Shown here: positions 2,083-27,271 of the stretch, piece by piece
Position numbering within the stretch: the first letter of the stretch is position 1
How the letters are laid out: each line of letters starts with the position of its first letter
Source of the DNA: an uncultured Pseudomonadota bacterium
GTDB taxonomy: Bacteria; Pseudomonadota; Gammaproteobacteria; Burkholderiales; Rhodocyclaceae
Direction of reading: 5' to 3'
DNA: 37,095 nucleotides
NCBI GenBank assembly: GCA_903888645.1
Contig: CAISUK010000245.1
Location: 1-37,095 of the forward strand
Translations under genes and position numbers: made by a program
Notes under the pieces: model-generated
The model's input: the letters and a program-made list of their open reading frames with translations, nothing else
The model's database searches: none
Told to the model about the DNA's origin: nothing

Positions 2083-2522
2083 GGGTTTGCCGATATTGAA
2101 CTGCAAGGGGTCATGCTGGCAGGTATCTCGCATGACATTGGAACAATTGGTCAGGCCCTTCAATTTTTTACCCACCGATGTCCGCGGCGACGCGATGAAT
2201 CGTGCCCAGACGGGACAGTCAATATTGCGCTGCATCGGCCAGCTGAAAAATGCAGGGTTGCGAATCCGTCATCAGATCAGGTTGTTGTCGGCGTCTTCTA
2301 CGCGCGCCTGGCGGAAAATCAGAACGTATCTTCAAAGAGTTGCCGAAAAAGCCGCCGCGCCTCTAAGTTGGTATTGAATTGGCACAGGAACTGGTGCATA
2401 AGGAAGGCTATCTGCTTTTGGTCAACAGCTATCGGTTCGAGCCCGAGTTTGTCGCTCAGCTGATGCGCATGAAGGAAACCGAAAGTGACGCCATCACTGT
2501 TTATGTAAGGCAGGTGCCATGA
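2083..2522 (+). pseudogene. Degraded remnant, possibly of an HD-domain protein
   Basis: Fragments in different frames: ...GVMLAGISHDIGTIGQALQFF... (HDIG) and, after a frame change, ...IFKELPKKPPRL*VGIELAQELVHKEGYLLLVNSYRFEPEFVAQLMRMKETESDAITVYVRQVP* ending at 2522, overlapping the response regulator start. Confidence 0.4.
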
Positions 2523-3088
2523 TGAACCGGATCATGATCGTTGATGACGAGGAAAGTATCCTCAATGCATTGCGGCGACTCCTCCTCGTCGCACCCTGCA
2601 GCTATGATCGCGTAATTTATCGGTTCCAGGTTGAGACATTTTCTTCGCCGCTCGCAGCGCTCGAGAAGGCCCGCCATCATGCCTTTGACTTGGTCATTTC
2701 CGACTATCGCATGCCTGGTATGGACGGCGTGGAGTTCCTCACGAAGTTTCGCAGCATTCAGCCGGACGCGCCTCGCCTAATCCTTTCCGGATATGCCGAC
2801 CTCAACGCCCTGATTGGGGCGATCAACGAAGCGCAAATTTTTCGCTTCCTGGCGAAGCCGTGGAGCGATTTCGAGCTGACCTTGACGATAGCGCAGGCCT
2901 TGGGGTTCCGCAATTTATTGCTGGAAAACCAGCGGCTGGCCGATGAGATGCGGGTGCAGCAGGGAAAGCTGAGCAAGCTTGAATTGGAAGTGAAGCGACT
3001 TGAAGCACTGGAGCCTGGAATTACCAAGGTCAATTGGGGACCGGATGGCTCGGTCATCCTCGACGAAGAGTTTCGCGATCTGGATTAG
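2519..3088 (+). CDS. Response regulator (REC domain plus C-terminal coiled coil, no obvious output domain)
   Basis: MMNRIMIVDDEESILNALRRLL...DLVISDYRMPGMDGVEFL...PRLILSGYADLN...FRFLAKPWS: canonical DD, phospho-D, T/S and K residues. Confidence 0.88.
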   Translation: MMNRIMIVDDEESILNALRRLLLVAPCSYDRVIYRFQVETFSSPLAALEKARHHAFDLVISDYRMPGMDGVEFLTKFRSIQPDAPRLILSGYADLNALIGAINEAQIFRFLAKPWSDFELTLTIAQALGFRNLLLENQRLADEMRVQQGKLSKLELEVKRLEALEPGITKVNWGPDGSVILDEEFRDLD

Positions 3089-3097
3089 GGGGAAGCG

Positions 3098-4528
3098 GTG
3101 GAGGCATTCGTTTGGGATGAGCGGTTTGTCACAGGCTTGGCGTCTGTGGACACGCAACACCATCATCTTGTCGATGTCATCAATCAGGTCGGCGACATTC
3201 TTGTCGATGAGAGCATGGCGACATCCACCGAACTACAGAAAGTATTCAAGGGACTCGCCAGTTATGCGCATCACCATTTTCACGATGAAGAAGAGTTGAT
3301 GGCCGAAGCAGGTCTCGATCCTCGTCACGTGGTGGCGCACAAAAAGCAGCATCACGATTTCATAGAGCAACTGGTTTCGATGTGGCGTTCTCGAGACGCC
3401 ATGGCTCGTCCAGCAGAGATTCTGCATGGGTTTCTTGCGGCCTGGCTAACCGTCCATATCCTTGGTGTCGATCTCGCCATGGCGCGCCAGTTAGCGCTTG
3501 TAAGATCAGGCGAGCTGGCCGCTGCGGCCTACGATATCGAGCTGAATCCAGTCAATAGCGCGACCTCGGCGCTGCTTACGGCAATGGAGAATTTGTACCG
3601 CGTTTTGTCGATGCAGAGCCGCGATCTGGCGCAAGCCAATACCAGCCTCGAGGAGAAGGTGACGCTGCGCACAGCGGAGCTCGAAGCGGCAAACGTCGCC
3701 CTGCAGCAGGAGCGGGAAGATCTGCGAATGCTATTGCATAGGGTCGAGGAGGTGCAGAGCCAGTTGCTGCAATCGGAAAAAATGGCTTCGATCGGCCAAC
3801 TGGCTGCCGGCGTGGCGCATGAGATAAACAACCCGGTGGGCTTCGTCAATTCCAATCTGACTACGCTCAATACCTATGTCGGGCAACTATTGAAGTTGAT
3901 CGACGCGCACGAGGCTGGCGCGGTGACAGACGCCTTAAGGCAAGAGGCGGACCTTGATTTTTTGCGTCGGGACATCGCTGACCTGGTCAGTGAGTCTCAG
4001 GACGGACTCGATCGGGTCAAGAAGATCGTGTCCAATCTTAAGGATTTCTCGCACGTTGACGAAGCCGAATGGCAGGAAGCGGATATCAATGCCGGACTCG
4101 AAGGCACGCTGAACGTGGTCTGGAACGAGATCAGGTACAAGGCCGCAGTGGTCCGAGAGTATGGCTCCCTGCCGCCGGTTCGGTGTATCCCCGCGCAAAT
4201 CAATCAAGTCGTGATGAACCTGCTGGTGAATGCCGCGCAGGCGATCGAGCAGCAGGGCACCATCACTTTGCGCTCGGGCATCGAGGGCGACTGGGCGTGG
4301 ATAGAGATTGAGGACACTGGCAAAGGCATGACGCCGGCAGTGACGAAGCGGATATTCGAGCCATTCTTTACCACCAAGCCGGTGGGCAAGGGGACGGGCC
4401 TTGGCCTTTCTCTCTCCTATGACATCGTTGCCAAACATGGCGGTAGTTTCACCGTGCGCAGCGAGCCAGGAAAGGGTTCAAGTTTCCGCATCGTTCTGCC
4501 GGTACGCGGGCCTGGCGGTTCCGCTTGA
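3098..4528 (+). CDS. Hemerythrin-domain sensor histidine kinase
   Basis: N-terminal hemerythrin ligands DTQHHHL, HHHFHDEEELM, HKKQHHDF, HILGVD; C-terminal HisKA (LAAGVAHEINNPVGFV) and HATPase (N..QAIEQQG, EDTGKGM, GTGLGLSLS). Confidence 0.9.
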   Translation: MEAFVWDERFVTGLASVDTQHHHLVDVINQVGDILVDESMATSTELQKVFKGLASYAHHHFHDEEELMAEAGLDPRHVVAHKKQHHDFIEQLVSMWRSRDAMARPAEILHGFLAAWLTVHILGVDLAMARQLALVRSGELAAAAYDIELNPVNSATSALLTAMENLYRVLSMQSRDLAQANTSLEEKVTLRTAELEAANVALQQEREDLRMLLHRVEEVQSQLLQSEKMASIGQLAAGVAHEINNPVGFVNSNLTTLNTYVGQLLKLIDAHEAGAVTDALRQEADLDFLRRDIADLVSESQDGLDRVKKIVSNLKDFSHVDEAEWQEADINAGLEGTLNVVWNEIRYKAAVVREYGSLPPVRCIPAQINQVVMNLLVNAAQAIEQQGTITLRSGIEGDWAWIEIEDTGKGMTPAVTKRIFEPFFTTKPVGKGTGLGLSLSYDIVAKHGGSFTVRSEPGKGSSFRIVLPVRGPGGSA

Positions 4529-16377: not shown

Positions 16378-16921
16378 GCCGACTTATCAGGTGGCAGGTT
16401 CCGTCTGTTCAATTGCTTCGTTTGCCGGGTGACGTCAGGGTCGCGGCGGCAAGATTGTTCGGCTGAGCGGCAAGATTTTCCTTGGGTGACGTTTGTCGTC
16501 GCGAACCGGACATTGCTTAAGCGATGTTATGCCGTTGGTAAGGTGATAAAGCCTTCGATTCCTGACGAGACAGAGCCAATCGGATCAATGCTTATGGATG
16601 TTGCAATGCACCAAATTTGCGCGTAGGATTATCCGCACTTCTCGTACGGGAATCATTGGGGGTACTTCCCCGTGGCTCGCCTAATCGCTTCGACTGTTCT
16701 TGCTGTAGTCTCAACGGTCAACGTCCTCTCAGAATGTTGCGGTCGCCTGATTGAGGGTCGCCGCACGGGTTCACGTTGCACCCGGCTGCCGACGCGATGT
16801 GCCTCCCCGCTTCTCAGCTTTGCATCGAACGCGGGTTTGGCAATGTGCTTTATCGAGGGTAATCGGCGTTTGCATTTCTCGCCTTCCGCTTCAGTGCGAT
16901 AGATTCCACTTGTTGAAAGGA

Positions 16922-18172
16922 ATGAACATGAGCAAAGTCAGCATCATCGGTGCTTACAACACCGAATTCGGGGCCTTCGTGAATAAGGACAAGGCAACCG
17001 GTCTGGTGACCGATACCAAGACCTACTACGATCTACTGGTCGAGGCCGGGCGCGGCGCCATTGCCGATGCCGGTTTGGAAGCCAAGGACATTGACGCCAT
17101 CTATGTCGGCTCGTGTTCGCCGGCCTCTTTTGCCAATCAGGAGCATGTCGCACCGATCGCGGCGGAAATCCATCCCGATTTACGCTTCAAGCCGATGACC
17201 CGCTGCGAGTGCGCCTGCGCTTCGTCGTCGGTGGCGCTCTACGATGGCATTTATGCCGTCGAGGCCGGCCGCGCCAGGCATGTGCTTGTCATCGGCGTCG
17301 AAAAGATGAACCTCTTGCCGACACCGCAAATGACGCACGTCTTGGCCTGCTGTTCGCACTGGCCGAGCGAAGGCTCGAAGGGCTGGTCATTTCCGGCGCT
17401 GTTCGCCGAATACGCCAAGGGCTATCAGGCTCAATACAAGATTCCGAACTCGGAACTGGAAAAGATGTTGTGGACGGCGGGTGCGCTATGCTACAAAAAC
17501 GGCGCCGAGAATCCGCTGGCGCACGTCCGCAATGGACCGGCGACAGTCGAAGCGATCATGAAGCTCAACGAACTCGATGCGCGCGGCAAGTGCAAGAACA
17601 TGATGATCGCTCCACCATTGCGCCTGCATGACTGTTCGCTCGTTTCGGACGGCGCCGCTGCCTTGGTGATCACCTTGACAACGAACGTCAGCAACCGCCA
17701 GCGTGCCGTGGAAATCGCCGGGATTGGCCATTCAGTGGAGCGCCTGCCGGAGAATGTGCGTCCCAATATGCATGAACTGATGGCTGGCAAGGACGCCGCC
17801 GCCAAGGCCTACAAGGAGGCAGGCATTACGGCGAGCGACATCGATTTTGCCGAAGTCCATGATTGCTTTACGATCAACCAGATTCTGTCGACCGAGGCGC
17901 TCGGTCTTTCTGCAGATGGCCGGGCTGGTTACGACTACCTTGACGGCCGCTTCACGCGGGACGACAAAGTGGCGGTCAACTTGTCGGGCGGCCTGAAGTC
18001 GAAGGGCCATCCGGTCGGTGCCACCGGCGCCTCCATGCACACGCTCATCTACAAGCAACTGATCGGCGAGGCGATTGGCGTCAAGGCGAAGAAGGCGGAT
18101 ATTGGCGTGGCATTCAATGTCGGCGGTTCTGCGGTCACCAACTGTGTCAGCGTATTGAGAAGACTGTCATGA
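16922..18172 (+). CDS. SCP2-type thiolase / acetyl-CoA acetyltransferase family
   Basis: MSKVSIIGAYNTEFG...MTRCECACASSSVALYDGI (active Cys), EVHDCFTINQILSTEALGL, NLSGGLKSKGHPVGATGASMH; RBS-like GAAAGGA before ATG 16922/16928. Confidence 0.88.
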   Translation: MNMSKVSIIGAYNTEFGAFVNKDKATGLVTDTKTYYDLLVEAGRGAIADAGLEAKDIDAIYVGSCSPASFANQEHVAPIAAEIHPDLRFKPMTRCECACASSSVALYDGIYAVEAGRARHVLVIGVEKMNLLPTPQMTHVLACCSHWPSEGSKGWSFPALFAEYAKGYQAQYKIPNSELEKMLWTAGALCYKNGAENPLAHVRNGPATVEAIMKLNELDARGKCKNMMIAPPLRLHDCSLVSDGAAALVITLTTNVSNRQRAVEIAGIGHSVERLPENVRPNMHELMAGKDAAAKAYKEAGITASDIDFAEVHDCFTINQILSTEALGLSADGRAGYDYLDGRFTRDDKVAVNLSGGLKSKGHPVGATGASMHTLIYKQLIGEAIGVKAKKADIGVAFNVGGSAVTNCVSVLRRLS

Positions 18173-18539: not shown

Positions 18540-19334
18540 ATGGAAATCAAAGGTAGCGTAGCTCTCGTGACCGGGGGCGGCAATGGCATCGGCGAGGCCG
18601 TTGCCAAGTTCTTTGCCAGGAACGGCGCCAAGGTTGCCGTCGTCGACATGGTGCAGAAGAACATCGACCGCGTTGTCAGCGAGATCAAGGAAGCCGGTGG
18701 TGAAGTCATCGGCGTGCAGGCCAATGTCACCAGCGAAGCGGATACGGCACGTTATATCAAGGCGACCTTGGAGGCGTTCGGCCAACTCAATATCGCTGTG
18801 GCATGCGCCGGAATCATCCGCGACGGCACCATGCTGACGCTCGACAAGGAAACCGGCAAGGTCTCGCGCAAGATGGGCCTCGACAAATGGCAACCGGTAA
18901 TTGACGTCAATCTCACTGGTACCTTCCTGACTCTGCGCGACGCCGCCGAGGCGATGGTCAATGGCGGATGGGAAGGATTGCTGGTGCCGATTTCCTCGGT
19001 CAACAAGGTCGGTCAGATCGGGCAGCTCAATTACTCTTCGACCAAGGTTGCCGACGCCCTGATGCCCAAGATCATCATCGGCGAATTCCTCATGCGCGGC
19101 ATTCGCAATATCCGCTGCGTCGGCATCGCCCCGGGCTATACGGCGACTCCGATGCTGACCGGCATGAATCAGGAAGCGCTGCGCAGCATCCTGGAGGACG
19201 TGCATATCGGCCGACTGGTCGAACCCGACGAGATCGCCGCCATGATCGGCCACTGTGTTGTGAACGGCGCCCTCAACGCGACGACCATCGAGATCACCGG
19301 CGGCCTGTGCAATTCCAAGGGAATCGCCAAGTAG
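18540..19334 (+). CDS. Short-chain dehydrogenase/reductase
   Basis: LVTGGGNGIGEAVAKFF, NVTS, ISSVNKVGQIGQLNYSSTKVA (Ser/YxxxK), APGYTATPM. Confidence 0.92.
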   Translation: MEIKGSVALVTGGGNGIGEAVAKFFARNGAKVAVVDMVQKNIDRVVSEIKEAGGEVIGVQANVTSEADTARYIKATLEAFGQLNIAVACAGIIRDGTMLTLDKETGKVSRKMGLDKWQPVIDVNLTGTFLTLRDAAEAMVNGGWEGLLVPISSVNKVGQIGQLNYSSTKVADALMPKIIIGEFLMRGIRNIRCVGIAPGYTATPMLTGMNQEALRSILEDVHIGRLVEPDEIAAMIGHCVVNGALNATTIEITGGLCNSKGIAK

Positions 19335-19409: not shown

Positions 19410-21734
19410 ATGACTGAAGTCGATCTGAAAACCTTCTTCCTCGAAAAGGTTCGCCTTTTCGAGAGTTTCTTGGCCGAAAAGGTCGATGAAATCGTCGCGA
19501 GTTCCCGGTTGGCCACTTACGAGGGCAACGAGGCGATCCTTGAGACAGGGGACGAGGGCCGCTTTTTCGGCATCCTGATCACCGGTCACGCCGAGGTTTC
19601 GGTTGCCGACAATACCGGAACCCGCTCCGTCGTCACCCAGCTTGAAGCTGGCGACGTGTTCGGCGTCATGTCCTTGCTAACCGGCGATCGCATCGTTGCC
19701 GATGTCATCGCCGGCAATCGGTGCTTCGTCCTGATGATTCCCCGGGCGATATTCAATAGCCATATCCTGACCAACCCAAAGGCCGTCGGCTACCTTTCCC
19801 GGCTGCTCGCCGAGCGCACGCGGACAATGTCGGTCGACCTCGTAGACGCCCAGGCAAGGGCCGCTGCCAAGTCTGAAGATCCCTATTCACTGTCACTGAC
19901 GACCAATGTTCCGGGCAAAGTCCTGGCGCTCAACGTTGGCATCAGCCAGATTCACTTTGGCATTTACGACACGCATGACCTTGGATCCGATGTCCATGGG
20001 ATTATCGACAACGGCCTCGATAACGTGTCCAGAATACGTGTGACGGTCGGTCCGCATAGCAAAGCTTTCGAGCATCCGCCTTTCCCACTCGCCGACCTTT
20101 TCCGGGTCATGCAGGAGGCGACCAGGCTGCTCGGCGAGGCATTCACCTTTCATCCGGAGGAGGTGACGGCGGTTGGTCACCGGGTGGTCCACGGCGGCAG
20201 CAAGTTCTCCAGCGCCGTGGTCATCACGCCTGCCGTGATCGCCGACATCGAGGCGCTTTCAGTGTTTGCGCCGCTGCACAATCCGGTCAATCTCAACGGC
20301 ATACGCGAGGCGATGAAGCAGTTTCCCGGCGTGCCCCACGTCGCTGTTTTCGATACGGCCTTTCACCAGACGCTCCCACCGTACGCTTATCTCTACGGTC
20401 TGCCTTACGACCTTTACAAGAAGGACGGCATCCGTCGTTATGGGTTTCACGGCACCTCGCACCGCTTCGTCTCGCTCAAGTCGGCCGAGGTGGTCGGTCG
20501 GCCGCTAGGCGAACTGGAGATCGTCTCTTGTCACCTCGGTATCGGTGCGTCGCTCTGCGCCATCGATCATGGCCGCTCGGTTGATACGACGATGGGCATG
20601 ACCCCAACCGACGGACTGATCATGCCGAGCCGTTCAGGCAGCATCGATCCCGCAGTGATGATTCACCTCCTCGATCACCACAAAATGTCACCGGACCAGC
20701 TTTCCGACCTGATCAATACCGAGAGCGGCCTGAAGGGCATTTCCGGCATATCCAGCGACATCCACCAGATCGAGTCTGCTGCCGGCGAAGGTCACCACCG
20801 CGCCCTGCTGGCGCACAAGGCTTTTTGCTACCAGATACGCAAGAATATCGGCGCCTATGTCGCGGCGATGGGAGGCATCGATGTGCTCGCCTTTACCGGC
20901 GATATCGGCGAGACCAGTTCCACGGTGCGCAGCCTGGCCTGTCAGAGCCTTGGCTACATGGGTATCAAGCTGGACGAGGAAAAAAACCGCAACCTCGGCA
21001 AGATCCGCTCCCACGCCGTCATATCGGCGAGCGACTCGCCAGTGACCATCCTGGTCATAGCCAATGACGACGAGCGCCTGGTCGCTTGGGAAACACTGCG
21101 TTCCATCGAGCGTAACAAGCTGATCGTGGCCATGCGCGACGAGCAGGCCGAAGCACCGATCCCGATCGAAATCTCGGCTCACCATGTCCATCTGGCCCAA
21201 GCCGATGTCGACAAATTATTCGGTCCCGGGCACCAGTTGACGCCGGAGCACGAGCTTTCACAGCCAGGTCAGTTTGCCTGTGCCGAAAAATTGCATCTCG
21301 TGGGCCCAAAAGGACGCATCGCCAACATCCGCGTCCTCGGTCCGACGCGCAAGGAAACCCAGGTCGAAATCGCCATGACAGAACAATTCAAGGTCGGCAT
21401 TCAACCGCCTATCCGCGAGTCTGGCGATTTGGCCAACACCCCAGGTGTCACGCTGGAAGGGCCAGCCGGTAGCACAACCATCGAACGCGGCGTAATCTGC
21501 GCCCAGCGGCACATCCATATGTCGCCGGACGATGCCATGCGATTTCGGGTGCGCGACAAATATGTTGTCCGGGTGCGTATCGAAGGCGCCCGCGAACTGA
21601 TTTTTGGCGACGTGGTGGTTCGCGTCAATCCGAATTACCGGCTGGCGATGCATATCGACACCGACGAGGGCAATGCCGCCAATATTCGTACCGGCATGCT
21701 CGGCTACATCGAAGAAATTCAGAGCCGCCGCTGA
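19410..21734 (+). CDS. Fusion protein: cyclic nucleotide-binding domain + acetate/propionate kinase (AckA-like) + PduL-type phosphotransacylase
   Basis: Residues about 1-145 CNB-like (ILETGDEGRFFGILITGHAEVSV...LEAGDVFGVMSLLTGDRIVADVIA). From about nt 19917 AckA-like (GHRVVHGGSKFSS, APLHNPVN, VFDTAFHQTLP, RRYGFHGTSHRFVS, HLGIGASLCAID, RSGSIDPAVM, FTGDIGETSSTVR). From about nt 21150 PduL-like (ISAHHVHLAQADVDKLFGPGHQLTPEHELSQPGQFACAEKL, RVLGPTRKETQVE, CAQRHIHMSPDDAMRF, MHIDTDEGNAA). Confidence 0.92.
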   Translation: MTEVDLKTFFLEKVRLFESFLAEKVDEIVASSRLATYEGNEAILETGDEGRFFGILITGHAEVSVADNTGTRSVVTQLEAGDVFGVMSLLTGDRIVADVIAGNRCFVLMIPRAIFNSHILTNPKAVGYLSRLLAERTRTMSVDLVDAQARAAAKSEDPYSLSLTTNVPGKVLALNVGISQIHFGIYDTHDLGSDVHGIIDNGLDNVSRIRVTVGPHSKAFEHPPFPLADLFRVMQEATRLLGEAFTFHPEEVTAVGHRVVHGGSKFSSAVVITPAVIADIEALSVFAPLHNPVNLNGIREAMKQFPGVPHVAVFDTAFHQTLPPYAYLYGLPYDLYKKDGIRRYGFHGTSHRFVSLKSAEVVGRPLGELEIVSCHLGIGASLCAIDHGRSVDTTMGMTPTDGLIMPSRSGSIDPAVMIHLLDHHKMSPDQLSDLINTESGLKGISGISSDIHQIESAAGEGHHRALLAHKAFCYQIRKNIGAYVAAMGGIDVLAFTGDIGETSSTVRSLACQSLGYMGIKLDEEKNRNLGKIRSHAVISASDSPVTILVIANDDERLVAWETLRSIERNKLIVAMRDEQAEAPIPIEISAHHVHLAQADVDKLFGPGHQLTPEHELSQPGQFACAEKLHLVGPKGRIANIRVLGPTRKETQVEIAMTEQFKVGIQPPIRESGDLANTPGVTLEGPAGSTTIERGVICAQRHIHMSPDDAMRFRVRDKYVVRVRIEGARELIFGDVVVRVNPNYRLAMHIDTDEGNAANIRTGMLGYIEEIQSRR

Positions 21735-21778: not shown

Positions 21779-23545
21779 ATGGTTGCCAAAAGTACAGAGT
21801 CATCTAAGTCACTCCATCACCATCACCATCATGCTCCGGACGGACTCAGAACGATTGAAGGGATGATGACCTCGCTGCAGCAGCGGCTCGATCCGTTTGG
21901 CGTGGCGACATCGTTGCTCAACGCGCAGGTGGCGTGGATGCTGCATCCGCAAGAGCTATCGCGGTCGATCAGCGCCATTTCCGGCGATGTTCTGGCACTG
22001 CAGCAGCACCTTCTGCTGCGCGCCATGGGCATGCCCAGCGAAGCTGTGGTGACGCCTAAGGAGGGCGATGCGCGCTTCGCCGATCCGGTGTGGAGCGAAG
22101 AGCCGACATGGGAGATCATCAAGGAATCGTATCTGGCGATTACCCATCAACTTGAGGACATGCTTTTCGAGACACCCGGGCAGGCCGACAAGGAGCGTCG
22201 CCGCGCCGCTTTCTGGGTGCGCGAATGGCTCAACGCGATGGCCCCGACCAATTTCTTTCTGACCAACCCGGTCGCCATGCGCAAGTATTTCGAGACGCGC
22301 GGCGAAAGTCTGGTCAAGGGATTCGAGCATTTCATGCGCGATGCCAAGGCCAAGAATATTCGCATGGTCGAGGCCGACGCCTTCAAGGTCGGCGTCGATC
22401 TGGCGACTACTCCTGGTCATGTGGTTTTTCGCAACCGAATGGTCGAACTGCTGCACTACACGCCGACCACCGCGCAGGTACACAAGATCCCGATCGTGAT
22501 CATTACGCCGTGGATCAACAAGTTCTACATCCTCGACCTGACGCCAAAGAAGAGCCTGGTCAAATACCTGACAGATCAGGGCTACAGCGTATTCATAACC
22601 AGTTGGAAGAATCCGGACGCCGCTATGGCTGACGTCGCGTTTGACGACTACCTGCTCGACGGTGTCGATCAAGTAGTGGACGCTGCGCGCAAACTCTGCA
22701 AGTCCTCGCAAGTCCACCTGACCGGTTACTGCATCGGCGGCACCCTGGTGGCGACCTACATGGCCTGGGCCAGTCGTCATTACGGCGAAAAGGCGATGCC
22801 GGTCGCGCACTGGACGCTATTCACGACGCTGACCGATTTTTCTTCGCCTGGCGATATCGACGTTTTCATCGACGCAGGGGCGATTGCCGCGCTCGAAGAA
22901 AAGATGGCCAAGACCGGTTATCTCGATGGCGACGACATGGCTTCGAGTTTCCGCCTGTTGCGCTCCAACAGCCTCATCTGGCACTACTTCGAACAGAGCT
23001 ATCTGTTCGGCGAACCGCTGCCGCCTTTCGACGTGCTGTTCTGGAACATGGACACGACGCGCATGCCGGCGGCAATGCACTCCTTCTATCTGCGGCAGAT
23101 GTATCTGCACAACAATTTGATGAAGCGCGATGCGCTAAGCATTGCCGGAGAACTGATCGACCTGGATCTCATTACTCAGCCGCTCTACGCCGTGGCCGCC
23201 GAGGACGACCATATCGTGCCGTGGCGGCAGTCCTATCGGATCCGCAAGTACATCAATGTCGATGCGTCAGTGCGCTTTGTGCTGTCGACCTCTGGGCATA
23301 TCCTGGGAATCGTCAATCCTATGGTCAATCCACCCAAGCGGAGTTTCTGGGTGGCCGAGCCCGAGCGCAACGAACACTTCGAACATTGGTTCGTCCGCGC
23401 CGAGAAGAAGCCCGGCACTTGGTGGGAAGACTGGCTGGCCTGGCTATCGCCGCAATGCGGTCCGCTGGTGGCCGCGCCCAAGCTAGACGCCAAGACCTAT
23501 CCCGATCTCGGACCGGCGCCAGGTACCTACGTATTCGAAAAGTAG
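21779..23545 (+). CDS. phaC: Polyhydroxyalkanoate synthase (class I-like)
   Basis: 588 aa; lipase-like box GYCIGGT, TPWINKFYILDL, VFITSWKNPD, AEDDHIVPWRQSY, STSGHILGIVNP. N-terminus carries HHHHHH. Confidence 0.93.
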   Translation: MVAKSTESSKSLHHHHHHAPDGLRTIEGMMTSLQQRLDPFGVATSLLNAQVAWMLHPQELSRSISAISGDVLALQQHLLLRAMGMPSEAVVTPKEGDARFADPVWSEEPTWEIIKESYLAITHQLEDMLFETPGQADKERRRAAFWVREWLNAMAPTNFFLTNPVAMRKYFETRGESLVKGFEHFMRDAKAKNIRMVEADAFKVGVDLATTPGHVVFRNRMVELLHYTPTTAQVHKIPIVIITPWINKFYILDLTPKKSLVKYLTDQGYSVFITSWKNPDAAMADVAFDDYLLDGVDQVVDAARKLCKSSQVHLTGYCIGGTLVATYMAWASRHYGEKAMPVAHWTLFTTLTDFSSPGDIDVFIDAGAIAALEEKMAKTGYLDGDDMASSFRLLRSNSLIWHYFEQSYLFGEPLPPFDVLFWNMDTTRMPAAMHSFYLRQMYLHNNLMKRDALSIAGELIDLDLITQPLYAVAAEDDHIVPWRQSYRIRKYINVDASVRFVLSTSGHILGIVNPMVNPPKRSFWVAEPERNEHFEHWFVRAEKKPGTWWEDWLAWLSPQCGPLVAAPKLDAKTYPDLGPAPGTYVFEK

Positions 23546-23746
23546 GCGCGGCAGATATCGCCTGAAAGCTGGCCGCCTCGGAGTTTTGCCGATGCGGCCA
23601 AGTGCGCGGCGATTGCTCGGCTCGTTGGCTGATCCCGTTCTGTGTGCCAACGCACAGAGATAGCTTGGGCGTTGGCCGAAAATCCCGTGACGAAAGCGCT
23701 CCTGCGAAGCGCTCGAGTGCATTTGCGCTGCGCACGGGACTTGACG

Positions 23747-26700
23747 ATGACGAAGATCGAAAAAATGGGTGTCGGCATCCCGTTACCGGGGTTACGACAA
23801 ATGGACCCGGAAATCTGGCGTGCGATTTTCGATGCCAGTGCCGATGCGATATTTCTCCACGACGCGCAATCGCGGGTACTGCAGGCCAATCCCGCCTATT
23901 GCCGGGAAGCGGGCATCAGCGACGAGGCCGAGGCACTGGGAAAACTCTATTGGCAAGTGTTCCCGCTGGGCAGCGGGCCGATTCCCGGGCGCATCGTCGG
24001 TTCGAACGCAGCCGGCGACTCCGCAAACGAATTGGACCTGCATGTCGGCATCAGTCACTTTCTCGTGTTACGCCACTCAGTACGCGACGAACAGGGTAAT
24101 TCGCAATACACACTGGTCATATTGCGCGATATCACGGCGCAAAGACTGGCAGAAGAAGAATTGGCAGAGAGTCGGCAAAATGTTCGCCGCGCCATGGAAA
24201 CAGCGCACGATGCCATCATCACAGTCGATCCCGAAAGCAGTCTGGTCACCGGATGGAATCCTGCCGCCGAAGCGGTTTTTGGGCACAGCCGGGAAGAGGT
24301 GATCGGGCACACGCTTTTCGGCTTCCTGGCGCCGGCACAATTCCGCGAACTGGCGCTGCAGGGTATGGCGAATTTTGCCGAAACCGGCGATGCGGCGCCG
24401 CTCACCAAAACCATCGAATTGGTGGCGCTGCACGGTAACGGAACGGCATTCCCCATCGAAATCGTCCTGTCTGCCACCAGCAGTCACGGCAAGTGGTTCA
24501 CTACCGGTATTGTCCATGACATCAGCGAGCGCAACCGGGCGCTGGCATCGGAGAAGCGATATTTTCGCCTCTTTGAGTCGGCCAAGGACGGCATCCTGAT
24601 TCTCGATGCGGAAACAGGCAAACTCGTCGACGCCAATCCGTTTATCACCCAGTTACTCGGCTATCCGCGGGAGGATTTGCTCGGCAAGCATATCTGGGAA
24701 TTGGGCTTCTTCAAGAACGTCGCCGCCAACAAGGCCAAGTTCCTCGAACTGCAGCAGCGTGACTATGTGCGTTACGAGGACCTGCCGCTGGCGACAAGCG
24801 ATGGCAAGACGGTCCACGTCGAGTTCGTCAGCAATGTCTATCTGGTGGACAGCACCCGGGTGATCCAATGCAACATTCGCGACATCAGCGATCGCAAGCG
24901 GGTAGAAGAAACCAGAAAAGCCGCGTCGCAATATGCGCGGAGCCTGATCGAGGCGAGTCTGGACCCTCTGGTTACGATCAGTGCCAGTGGAATAATCACG
25001 GACGTCAACCTGGCGACTGAAAATGTGACCGGTACCAGTCGCGCCAAGCTCATCGGCAGCGACTTTGCCGACTATTTCACCGATCCCGAGCAGGCTCACG
25101 AGGTCTATCGGCGAGTTTTCTCGGAAGGATTTGTGACAGATTATCCGCTGGCGATTCGCCATGTCTCGGGCAACATCACCGACGTGCTGTATAACGCCAG
25201 CATCTATCGTGACGATTGCGGCAAGGTCTTGGGCGTTCTTGCCGCCGCGCGGGATATTACCGAGCGCAAAAGAATCGAGAATGAATTGCGGCAGAGCAAG
25301 GAGTGGTTGGAGGCGGCCGCTTCTGCCGGAATTGTCGGTCTCTGGAGCTGGGATATACCGAACGATTCGCTGGTTTGGGACAGGGTCATGTATCGCCTCT
25401 ACGGCATTGGCCCCGCAGACTTTGGCGGCGCCTATGCAGGGTGGGTAAGCGCTATCCACCCTGATGACAAGGCTCGGACCGAGGTAGAGATTCAATCCGC
25501 TCTGCGCGGCGAGCGGGAATATTGTCCGGAATTCCGCGTCATCTGGCCAGATCGTTCGGTGCACTTCATCAAGGCGGCTTCCCACACCAGCTTTGATCCC
25601 CAGGGCAAGCCACTGCACATGGTCGGCGTCAACTATGACCTGACCGAACGCAAGCAGGTCGAGCAAGCCCTGCTTCGTGAAAGCGAGAAGAACCGGGTGC
25701 TATTGCGCAATGCCAGCGATGGAATTCATATTCTCGATCCCGCCGGCAGGGTCATCGAGGTCAGCGATTCCTTTTGTGCCATGTTGGGCTATCGACGCGA
25801 AGAGTTGATCGGCATGAACGTGGCGCAGTGGGATGCACACCTTACCCAGGAGCAACTCGCTCAGGCAATCAGTCAACCTTTTGCCAATGCTGGGCGCATC
25901 GAATTTGAGACTCGCCACCGGCGTAAGGATGGAACTGTTTTCGATGTTGAGGTCAGCGGCTGTCCGCTCCAACTGGAAGGCCGGCCGGTAATTTTCTACT
26001 CCTCACGCGACACTACTTTGCGCAAGAAGGTAGCGGCGGAACTCGACGCCCATCGCCATCATCTCGAAGAATTGGTCGAAACGCGCACTGCTGCGCTGTC
26101 GCTCGCCAAGCAAGCCGCCGAAACCGCAAACGTATCCAAGAGCGCCTTCCTGGCGAACATGTCGCACGAAATTCGTACGCCGCTCAACGCCATCACCGGG
26201 ATGGCCTACCTGATCCGTCGCTCTGGCGTAACAGCCCAGCAGGCAGACCGTCTGGACAAGATCGATGTGGCCGGAAAACATCTTCTGGAAACCATCAATG
26301 CTGTTCTCCACCTCTCCAAAATCGAGGCCGGAAAGTTTGTATTGGAGGAAACGGCGGTCGTGGTCGGGAGCATCATCGCCAATATCGCATCGATGCTCCT
26401 CAATAAAGCCAGGGCGAAAGGATTGAGGCTGGTCGTGGAGACGGAAAAAAGCTTGCATCATCATCTCCTCGGTGACCCGACCCGGCTGCAGCAGGCGCTG
26501 CTCAATTATGCCGCCAACGCGATCAAGTTTACCGAGAGCGGGACCGTCACCCTGCGCGCCTTGATTGCTGAGGAACTAATCGACAGTGTGCTGGTACGCT
26601 TCGAGGTTCAGGACACCGGCATTGGCATCGACCCGGCCACCCAGCTCAAGCTTTTCAAGGCATTTGAGCAGGCAGACAATTCTGTGACCCGCAAGTATGG

Positions 26701-27271
26701 TGGTACCGGCCTCGGCCTGACCATCACCAGAAAGCTGGCGCAATTGATGGGTGGAGATGCGGATGTCATTAGTGTGCCGGCGCTGGGCAGTACTTTCTGG
26801 TTTACGGCCAGACTCAAGAAAGGCGACCCGAACAACGCTGTGCCGCGCATAGTATTGGCGCAATCTGCCGAGGCGATCCTGAAGCGAGACTACCGTGGGC
26901 GGCGCATCCTCCTGGCTGAAGACGAACCGATCAATCGGGAGATCACCACGGAGCTTCTCCAATACATCGGATTGGTTATCGATTGCGCCGAAGATGGCTC
27001 GCAGGCGGTCGAACTGGCCGGAAAAAACCACTACGACCTGATTCTGATGGACATGCAGATGCCGCGCATGGATGGTCTGGAGGCGACCCAAACGATCCGC
27101 GCATCAGCCAACGGCGGCAAGGTTCCGATCCTCGCGGTCACGGCCAATGCCTTTGCCGAAGACAAGGCACGCTGCTACGCGGCTGGCATGAATGACTATG
27201 TGGCGAAGCCGGTCAATCCGGAGGCGCTGTTTGCCACATTGCTGAAATGGTTGGGTCCGGCAAATAATTGA
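23747..27271 (+). CDS. Multi-PAS hybrid sensor histidine kinase with C-terminal receiver
   Basis: Several PAS domains (e.g. RYFRLFESAKDGILILDAETGKLVDANP), HisKA FLANMSHEIRTPLNAI, HATPase DTGIGIDP/GGTGLGLTITRKL, REC LLAEDEPINREI...LILMDMQMPRMDG...YVAKPV. ATG 23747 preferred over 23642. Confidence 0.92.
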   Translation: MTKIEKMGVGIPLPGLRQMDPEIWRAIFDASADAIFLHDAQSRVLQANPAYCREAGISDEAEALGKLYWQVFPLGSGPIPGRIVGSNAAGDSANELDLHVGISHFLVLRHSVRDEQGNSQYTLVILRDITAQRLAEEELAESRQNVRRAMETAHDAIITVDPESSLVTGWNPAAEAVFGHSREEVIGHTLFGFLAPAQFRELALQGMANFAETGDAAPLTKTIELVALHGNGTAFPIEIVLSATSSHGKWFTTGIVHDISERNRALASEKRYFRLFESAKDGILILDAETGKLVDANPFITQLLGYPREDLLGKHIWELGFFKNVAANKAKFLELQQRDYVRYEDLPLATSDGKTVHVEFVSNVYLVDSTRVIQCNIRDISDRKRVEETRKAASQYARSLIEASLDPLVTISASGIITDVNLATENVTGTSRAKLIGSDFADYFTDPEQAHEVYRRVFSEGFVTDYPLAIRHVSGNITDVLYNASIYRDDCGKVLGVLAAARDITERKRIENELRQSKEWLEAAASAGIVGLWSWDIPNDSLVWDRVMYRLYGIGPADFGGAYAGWVSAIHPDDKARTEVEIQSALRGEREYCPEFRVIWPDRSVHFIKAASHTSFDPQGKPLHMVGVNYDLTERKQVEQALLRESEKNRVLLRNASDGIHILDPAGRVIEVSDSFCAMLGYRREELIGMNVAQWDAHLTQEQLAQAISQPFANAGRIEFETRHRRKDGTVFDVEVSGCPLQLEGRPVIFYSSRDTTLRKKVAAELDAHRHHLEELVETRTAALSLAKQAAETANVSKSAFLANMSHEIRTPLNAITGMAYLIRRSGVTAQQADRLDKIDVAGKHLLETINAVLHLSKIEAGKFVLEETAVVVGSIIANIASMLLNKARAKGLRLVVETEKSLHHHLLGDPTRLQQALLNYAANAIKFTESGTVTLRALIAEELIDSVLVRFEVQDTGIGIDPATQLKLFKAFEQADNSVTRKYGGTGLGLTITRKLAQLMGGDADVISVPALGSTFWFTARLKKGDPNNAVPRIVLAQSAEAILKRDYRGRRILLAEDEPINREITTELLQYIGLVIDCAEDGSQAVELAGKNHYDLILMDMQMPRMDGLEATQTIRASANGGKVPILAVTANAFAEDKARCYAAGMNDYVAKPVNPEALFATLLKWLGPANN

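Follow-up and report, generated by a model that had tools for sequence, protein, structure and literature searches.

A single polypeptide of an uncultured Rhodocyclaceae bacterium joins a cyclic-nucleotide-binding (CNB) domain, an acetate kinase (AckA) and a PduL phosphotransacylase. This CNB-AckA-PduL architecture is real, conserved, mostly restricted to one clade and no artefact, as it was found across 80 loci of other genomes and in our genome samples. The protein resembles an ATP-making enzyme gated by cAMP, but judged from its residues it probably is not one, because the positions that would hold the cyclic nucleotide and ATP are replaced, with the PduL centre left intact. The gene lies in a stretch of 37,095 nucleotides (contig CAISUK010000245.1, assembly GCA_903888645.1), which was analysed at its full length and is called the window here. 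Its features are collected in Table 1.

Table 1. Features of the window discussed in the text, by position (forward strand, +). Residue names without further mention refer to the three-domain protein; residues given as replaced or kept are named first in the numbering of the reference enzyme.
Feature	Position	Strand	Evidence or remark
Thiolase-domain protein, same gene run	16751..18172	+	Pfam/NCBIfam
SDR/FabG-PhaB-like reductase	18540..19334	+	75 bp upstream; Pfam/NCBIfam
CNB-AckA-PduL three-domain protein	19410..21734	+	774 aa; ORF and Pfam/NCBIfam domains
cNMP-binding (CNB) domain, aa 36-118	19515..19763	+	Pfam PF00027, 54 bits, cut-off 27.5
Degenerate phosphate-binding cassette GDVFGVMSLLTGDRIVADVIAGNRC, aa 81-105	19650..19724	+	V86 at the Glu position, I95 at the Arg position
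Acetate-kinase domain, aa 170-559	19917..21086	+	Pfam PF00871, 421 bits
PHOSPHATE1 loop NVGISQIHF (canonical N-x-G-S-S-S-x-K)	19932..19958	+	S10, S12, K14 replaced by I178, Q180, H182
PHOSPHATE2 loop HLGIGAS	20532..20552	+	N211 replaced by I378
LOOP3 MPSRSG	20622..20639	+	G239 replaced by P406; R241 kept as R408
LOOP4	20757..20765	+	D283 kept as D450; R285 replaced by H452
ADENOSINE loop FTGDIGETS	20892..20918	+	G331 replaced by D498, N335 by T502
ANDDE, aa 551-555	21060..21074	+	MtACK E384 replaced by D554
PduL (PTAC) domain, aa 585-759	21162..21686	+	Pfam PF06130, 256 bits; 5cuo match
PduL Zn1 ligands H592, H594	21183..21191	+	mapped on 5cuo H48, H50; invariant
PduL Zn1 ligand E653	21366..21368	+	maps to E109; invariant
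PduL Zn2 ligands H701, H703	21510..21518	+	map to H157, H159; invariant
PduL Zn2 ligand H748	21651..21653	+	maps to H204; invariant
Class I-like PHA synthase (PhaC)	21779..23545	+	44 bp downstream; Pfam PhaC_N; PHA_synth_I 593 bits, just below the cut-off of 623

A genuine three-domain protein of the Rhodocyclales

The initial annotation of the window described an uninterrupted frame of 774 codons, whose thirds match CNB, AckA and PduL. The frame was recovered at exactly its coordinates, with an ATG start and no internal stop, and all three domains were matched above the curated Pfam cut-offs (E-values of 4.4e-126 for Acetate_kinase, 2.1e-76 for PTAC and 1.7e-14 for cNMP_binding). Only the equal sizes did not hold, the parts measuring about 125, 395 and 180 aa. 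NCBIfam likewise recognised the ackA subfamily (406 bits, cut-off 293) and the phosphate propanoyltransferase (260 bits, cut-off 209). A first AF2 model, built with 55 orthologues, was too weak (pLDDT 63). The second, which adds three distant AckA sequences from viral contigs and one partial sequence, reached a pLDDT of 77 and confirms the three predicted domain folds, with an inter-domain placement (pTM 0.59) that is insufficient for active-site distances. Structure searches with the AF2 model led to acetate kinases (6ioy, TMt 0.83), to the PduL of R. palustris (5cuo, TMt 0.91) and to cyclic-nucleotide proteins (Clr, PKG).

At the 80 loci, apart from two cut by contig ends, the whole protein is encoded in one frame, and it is 73-85% identical to that of the window. 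Nearly all of these loci belong to Rhodocyclales (Dechloromonas, Azonexus, Zoogloea, Azoarcus, Thauera, Propionivibrio and metagenome-assembled genomes). Each of the three domains has a dN/dS ratio clearly under 1, for example 0.22 in AckA and 0.11 in PduL. An assembly fusion of separate genes is rejected by the 80 independent contigs, and a chance fusion by the same loci together with the dN/dS ratios, so that the single polypeptide proposed initially proves genuine. In the sampled genomes of the window's family, 26 of 151 carried the three-domain protein, one of them in two tandem copies. It was confined to this family in an order-level sample of 350 genomes and was found nowhere outside it in a class-level sample of 369. 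The phylum-level sample (399 genomes) added one further case, the locus L115 of genome G1113, which belongs to another proteobacterial class and encodes a protein 55% identical to ours; around G1113, a single two-domain relative was found. Among plasmids, no match covered 80% of the query, and the few relatives on viral contigs did not include the three-domain form.

In the open-licence papers we found nothing on the CNB-AckA-PduL form, in line with the initial annotation, to which no characterised protein of such architecture was known. The AckA-PduL fusion without the sensor was already described, together with the idea of channelling, by Erbilgin et al. 2016 (PMC4784909).

The PduL module

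In R. palustris PduL, the metal ligands are H48, H50 and E109 for one metal, and H157, H159 and H204 for the other (PMC4784909). All six are invariant among the aligned orthologues. Furthermore, R103 (R647 in the window protein), Q107, S127, R194, S45 and N211 are kept, and K70, changed to His, is the only altered phosphate or CoA residue. The PduL domain named by the initial annotation is therefore present with its catalytic residues intact. It has the dimetal site, Arg103 and a fold close to 5cuo, and is very likely active as a phosphotransacylase.

The window PduL differs from its R. palustris counterpart in being the C-terminal part of a fusion; it lacks an encapsulation peptide, and no genes for a microcompartment were seen beside it. 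PduL has so far been studied in microcompartments, and the three-domain protein would give it a free-standing, possibly regulated form.

The CNB module

Proteins that bind cAMP or cGMP share a phosphate-binding cassette of the form Gly-Glu ... Arg-Ser/Thr-Ala, in which the Arg holds the cyclic phosphate. The N-terminal module belongs to their fold, as indicated by its Pfam score and by the structural matches to Clr and PKG. However, the Arg at position 95 occurs in no three-domain protein seen, L115 included, and is replaced by I, V, L, T or another residue. The Glu position holds Val in 62 of the 81 orthologues and Glu in only nine; L115 has kept the Glu. With the defining Arg missing from all members and the Glu from most, the allosteric gating by a cyclic nucleotide that was proposed initially finds no support.

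An Arg is often present one residue ahead of position 95, and for this reason another anion could still bind to the cassette. In addition, the family motif DVIAGNRC, in which D98, R104 and C105 are near-invariant, points to some function, not necessarily the binding of a cyclic nucleotide. A similar arrangement is found in the mycobacterial cAMP-regulated acetyltransferase Pat, where a CNB domain also precedes an enzyme of acyl metabolism, and an NCBIfam model links our module to the CNB part of Pat. Nevertheless, the enzyme in Pat is a different one, and the cNMP-binding signature is missing in the three-domain protein.

The AckA module

By family scores and fold, the central module is an acetate kinase. 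Its residues are numbered here after the Methanosarcina thermophila enzyme (MtACK), and 81 orthologues were compared with 20 other AckA sequences, comprising two-domain fusions and plain AckA. On the acyl side, N7, R91, V93, H123, D148, F179, H180, H208, P232 and R241 are kept in all 81 orthologues, and L122 in 78. On the nucleotide side, S10, S12, K14, N211, G239, G331 and E384 are canonical in none of the 81 and R285 in five, whereas each of these residues is canonical in 19-20 of the 20 other sequences. The clade has D or E (once H) for G331, I or V (once A) for N211, and P (in a few cases S or A) for G239. The position of E384, which we take to be an essential glutamate, holds D in 75 orthologues and N or H in six; this Asp might partly substitute for the Glu and could still hold Mg2+. 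Thus, the module has the fold and the acyl-phosphate residues in common with the ATP-dependent MtACK (1tuu/1g99), but not those on the nucleotide side. Among 72 near-invariant columns of canonical AckA, nine are changed in the clade, eight of them in the nucleotide loops (Fisher p 4e-4, with loops that were taken from PMC4390882 but picked after the pattern was first seen).

The names and roles of the PHOSPHATE1, PHOSPHATE2, LOOP3 and ADENOSINE motifs follow PMC4390882, the last also PMC5517563. Single changes at N211, G239 or G331 lower the activity of MtACK about 6- to 200-fold, and G331 is fully conserved in AckA apart from the PPi-dependent Entamoeba enzyme (PMC4390882). We found no description of an AckA with a nucleotide site replaced as in the Rhodocyclales clade in the open-licence papers. 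Taken together, we consider it likely that the AckA module of this clade no longer has normal ADP/ATP use.

Of the 26 genomes that carry the three-domain protein, 25 also encode a separate AckA, nearly every copy of which has canonical motifs, and in the window's genome a canonical AckA lies behind a Pta/Ptb-like reading frame. Therefore, the cell does not need the three-domain protein as its AckA. This bears on the initial model of a bifunctional enzyme, which would convert acyl-CoA + Pi + ADP <-> acid + CoA + ATP, channel the acyl-phosphate and be switched by cAMP or cGMP. The three domains are indeed there, the transfer residues R91, H180, R241 and D148 are kept, and channelling has been proposed for two-domain fusions (PMC4784909). 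Yet with the degenerate CNB cassette, nearly all conserved nucleotide-side residues replaced and a canonical AckA elsewhere in the genome, the ADP/ATP-linked reaction is doubtful, and the model as a whole decidedly improbable.

The module could also have exchanged the nucleotide for another phosphoryl partner, such as Pi/PPi, polyphosphate or another small molecule, like the PPi-dependent AckA of Entamoeba histolytica (EhACK, 4h0o). The transfer residues are kept, and many carriers are sludge genera, some of which are polyphosphate accumulators. Moreover, the clade and EhACK both depart from the canonical residue at positions 211, 239 and 331, although not towards the same residues (PMC4390882), and EhACK is the only AckA reported with an altered G331 (PMC4390882, PMC5517563). 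However, the clade has hydrophobic or acidic replacements (I/V, P, D), which suit a polyanion poorly, and position 331 varies between D, E and R among members. The extra PHOSPHATE2 glycine and the Q-M pair at 331-332 of EhACK (PMC5517563) are absent, the clade having D-I/V and no insertion. The LOOP4 Arg of EhACK, which matters together with an Asp partner, is likewise replaced, R285 being His (PMC5517563). Such a partner is therefore quite unlikely. In the same study, closure of the adenosine pocket did not by itself yield PPi use. A nucleotide-free acyl-CoA/acid switch, in which AckA would pass phosphate to or from PPi, polyphosphate or another acceptor and the CNB would bind a ligand other than a cyclic nucleotide, is improbable as well.

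With the acyl-phosphate pocket and the transfer residues kept and the nucleotide side filled, the module might instead hydrolyse acyl-phosphate, and the whole protein would then be an acyl-CoA hydrolase that frees CoA via acyl-phosphate. The new residues D498, H452 and H182 are conserved close to the place once taken by the nucleotide phosphates and might serve to activate water. They are, however, not strictly conserved (D, E or R at 498), and we know of no precedent for a hydrolase in the AckA family; we regard this reading as unlikely.

Finally, the AckA module could be decaying and without function, so that only PduL matters. Its dN/dS ratio is roughly double the PduL value, and basal members differ from one another in the nucleotide loops. 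Nevertheless, a ratio of 0.22 is far below 1 and indicates that the module is kept, the acyl-phosphate residues are almost totally conserved, and new motifs such as NVGxSQIHFGIYDT are conserved in the clade. Decay is thus very improbable.

Distant members show further changes, with R at position 331 in G125 and N at H208 in G137. The tandem three-domain genes of G144 (L130, G144:C59:58000-70000) are 76% identical to each other, and both have D at N7 of AckA.

Origin of the fusion and of the altered site

The three-domain proteins group as a single clade in the AckA tree (support 100/99), with L115 as sister to the Rhodocyclales part and the two-domain AckA-PduL fusions outside. L115 has the same domain order and retains canonical PHOSPHATE1, PHOSPHATE2, LOOP3 and G331, while carrying E334Q and N335G. 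Since this sister keeps canonical loops, the nucleotide site changed on the Rhodocyclales stem, and the fusion is older than the loss of the site. The Rhodocyclales stem is longer than the L115 branch in the AckA tree (0.91 against 0.50 changes per column), but shorter in the PduL tree (0.156 against 0.277). Therefore, a burst of rapid change, roughly threefold when set against PduL, affected AckA alone, which has since returned to conservation (dN/dS 0.22).

The two-domain fusions of Polaromonas pPNAP02 (WP_011798166) and Paracoccus (WP_127899590), both annotated as acetate/propionate family kinase, also place AckA before PduL in one chain. Unlike the Rhodocyclales protein, they have no CNB domain and their nucleotide motifs are canonical. 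The Polaromonas fusion (L089) lies beside polyphosphate kinase 2, FabI and a DUF3141 protein. On a Sinorhizobium plasmid (L091:5998-7795), the annotation divides the PduL part of such a fusion between two genes. In G106, a relative from the same family, separate canonical ackA and pduL genes are adjacent (L132:3289-5082); this arrangement may represent an earlier step toward fusion.

A possible role and its implications

Tentatively, we favour a phosphotransacylase with a repurposed AckA. PduL would be the working enzyme (acyl-CoA + Pi <-> acyl-phosphate + CoA), and the AckA module, blind to nucleotides, would bind the acyl-phosphate made by PduL, or the acid, and so sense the product or act as a scaffold. 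The degenerate CNB would serve in dimerisation or bind some ligand. Some observations weigh against this proposal. The transfer residues H180, R241, R91 and D148 are kept, although a module that only binds might do without them. The single mutants of MtACK retained some activity, and compensation within the natural site is possible. L115 itself carries E334Q and N335G, and the neighbourhoods of the orthologous loci examined lend no support to a sensor role.

The carriers are wastewater and soil bacteria of the Rhodocyclales. Annotation pipelines would enter their three-domain protein as acetate kinase. In metabolic models built for sludge bacteria (Dechloromonas, Azonexus, Zoogloea, Thauera, Azoarcus), it would stand for acetate formation that yields ATP or for acetate activation that spends it, and the sequence speaks against such an entry. 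If the AckA module is nucleotide-blind, it would be, to our knowledge, the first known repurposed acetate kinase, and L115, with the ancestral state, would make the switch accessible to study by loop exchange.

Genomic neighbourhood

In the window, the gene stands between an SDR reductase and PhaC, separated from both by short gaps, with a thiolase-domain protein in the same gene run. This adjacency recurs at none or almost none of the 80 orthologous loci, where the neighbours are mixed (GGDEF, CRP-type, CBS and response-regulator proteins) and no partner dominates, and a function in a PHA operon, as suggested by the PhaC neighbour, is therefore weakened. Control through an FNR box is rejected, as neither TTGA-N6-TCAA nor its relaxed form was found within 300 nt upstream at 78 loci or in the window.

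Several minor observations were also made. A 10-bp hairpin, CTCGAAAAGG-TTCG-CCTTTTCGAG, lies inside the three-domain frame at codons 11-18 (window 19440-19463). For many of the orthologues, a comparable stem is predicted, in which one paired change occurs (AAG..CTT against CAG..CTG); the hairpin may be a mere consequence of the protein sequence. The PhaC frame starts with MVAKSTESSKSLHHHHHHAPDG (window 21779-21850), which contains a native run of six histidines. Directly after PhaC follows a hybrid histidine kinase of 1209 aa (window 23642-27271) with five or six PAS domains and a receiver. Further upstream, a histidine kinase with an N-terminal hemerythrin domain (window 3098-4528) adjoins a response regulator (2519-3088), and the two are a possible oxygen or redox sensor pair. 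In the basal members L075 (12362-14128) and L076 (12357-14096), the gene that follows codes for a protein with a CBS domain.
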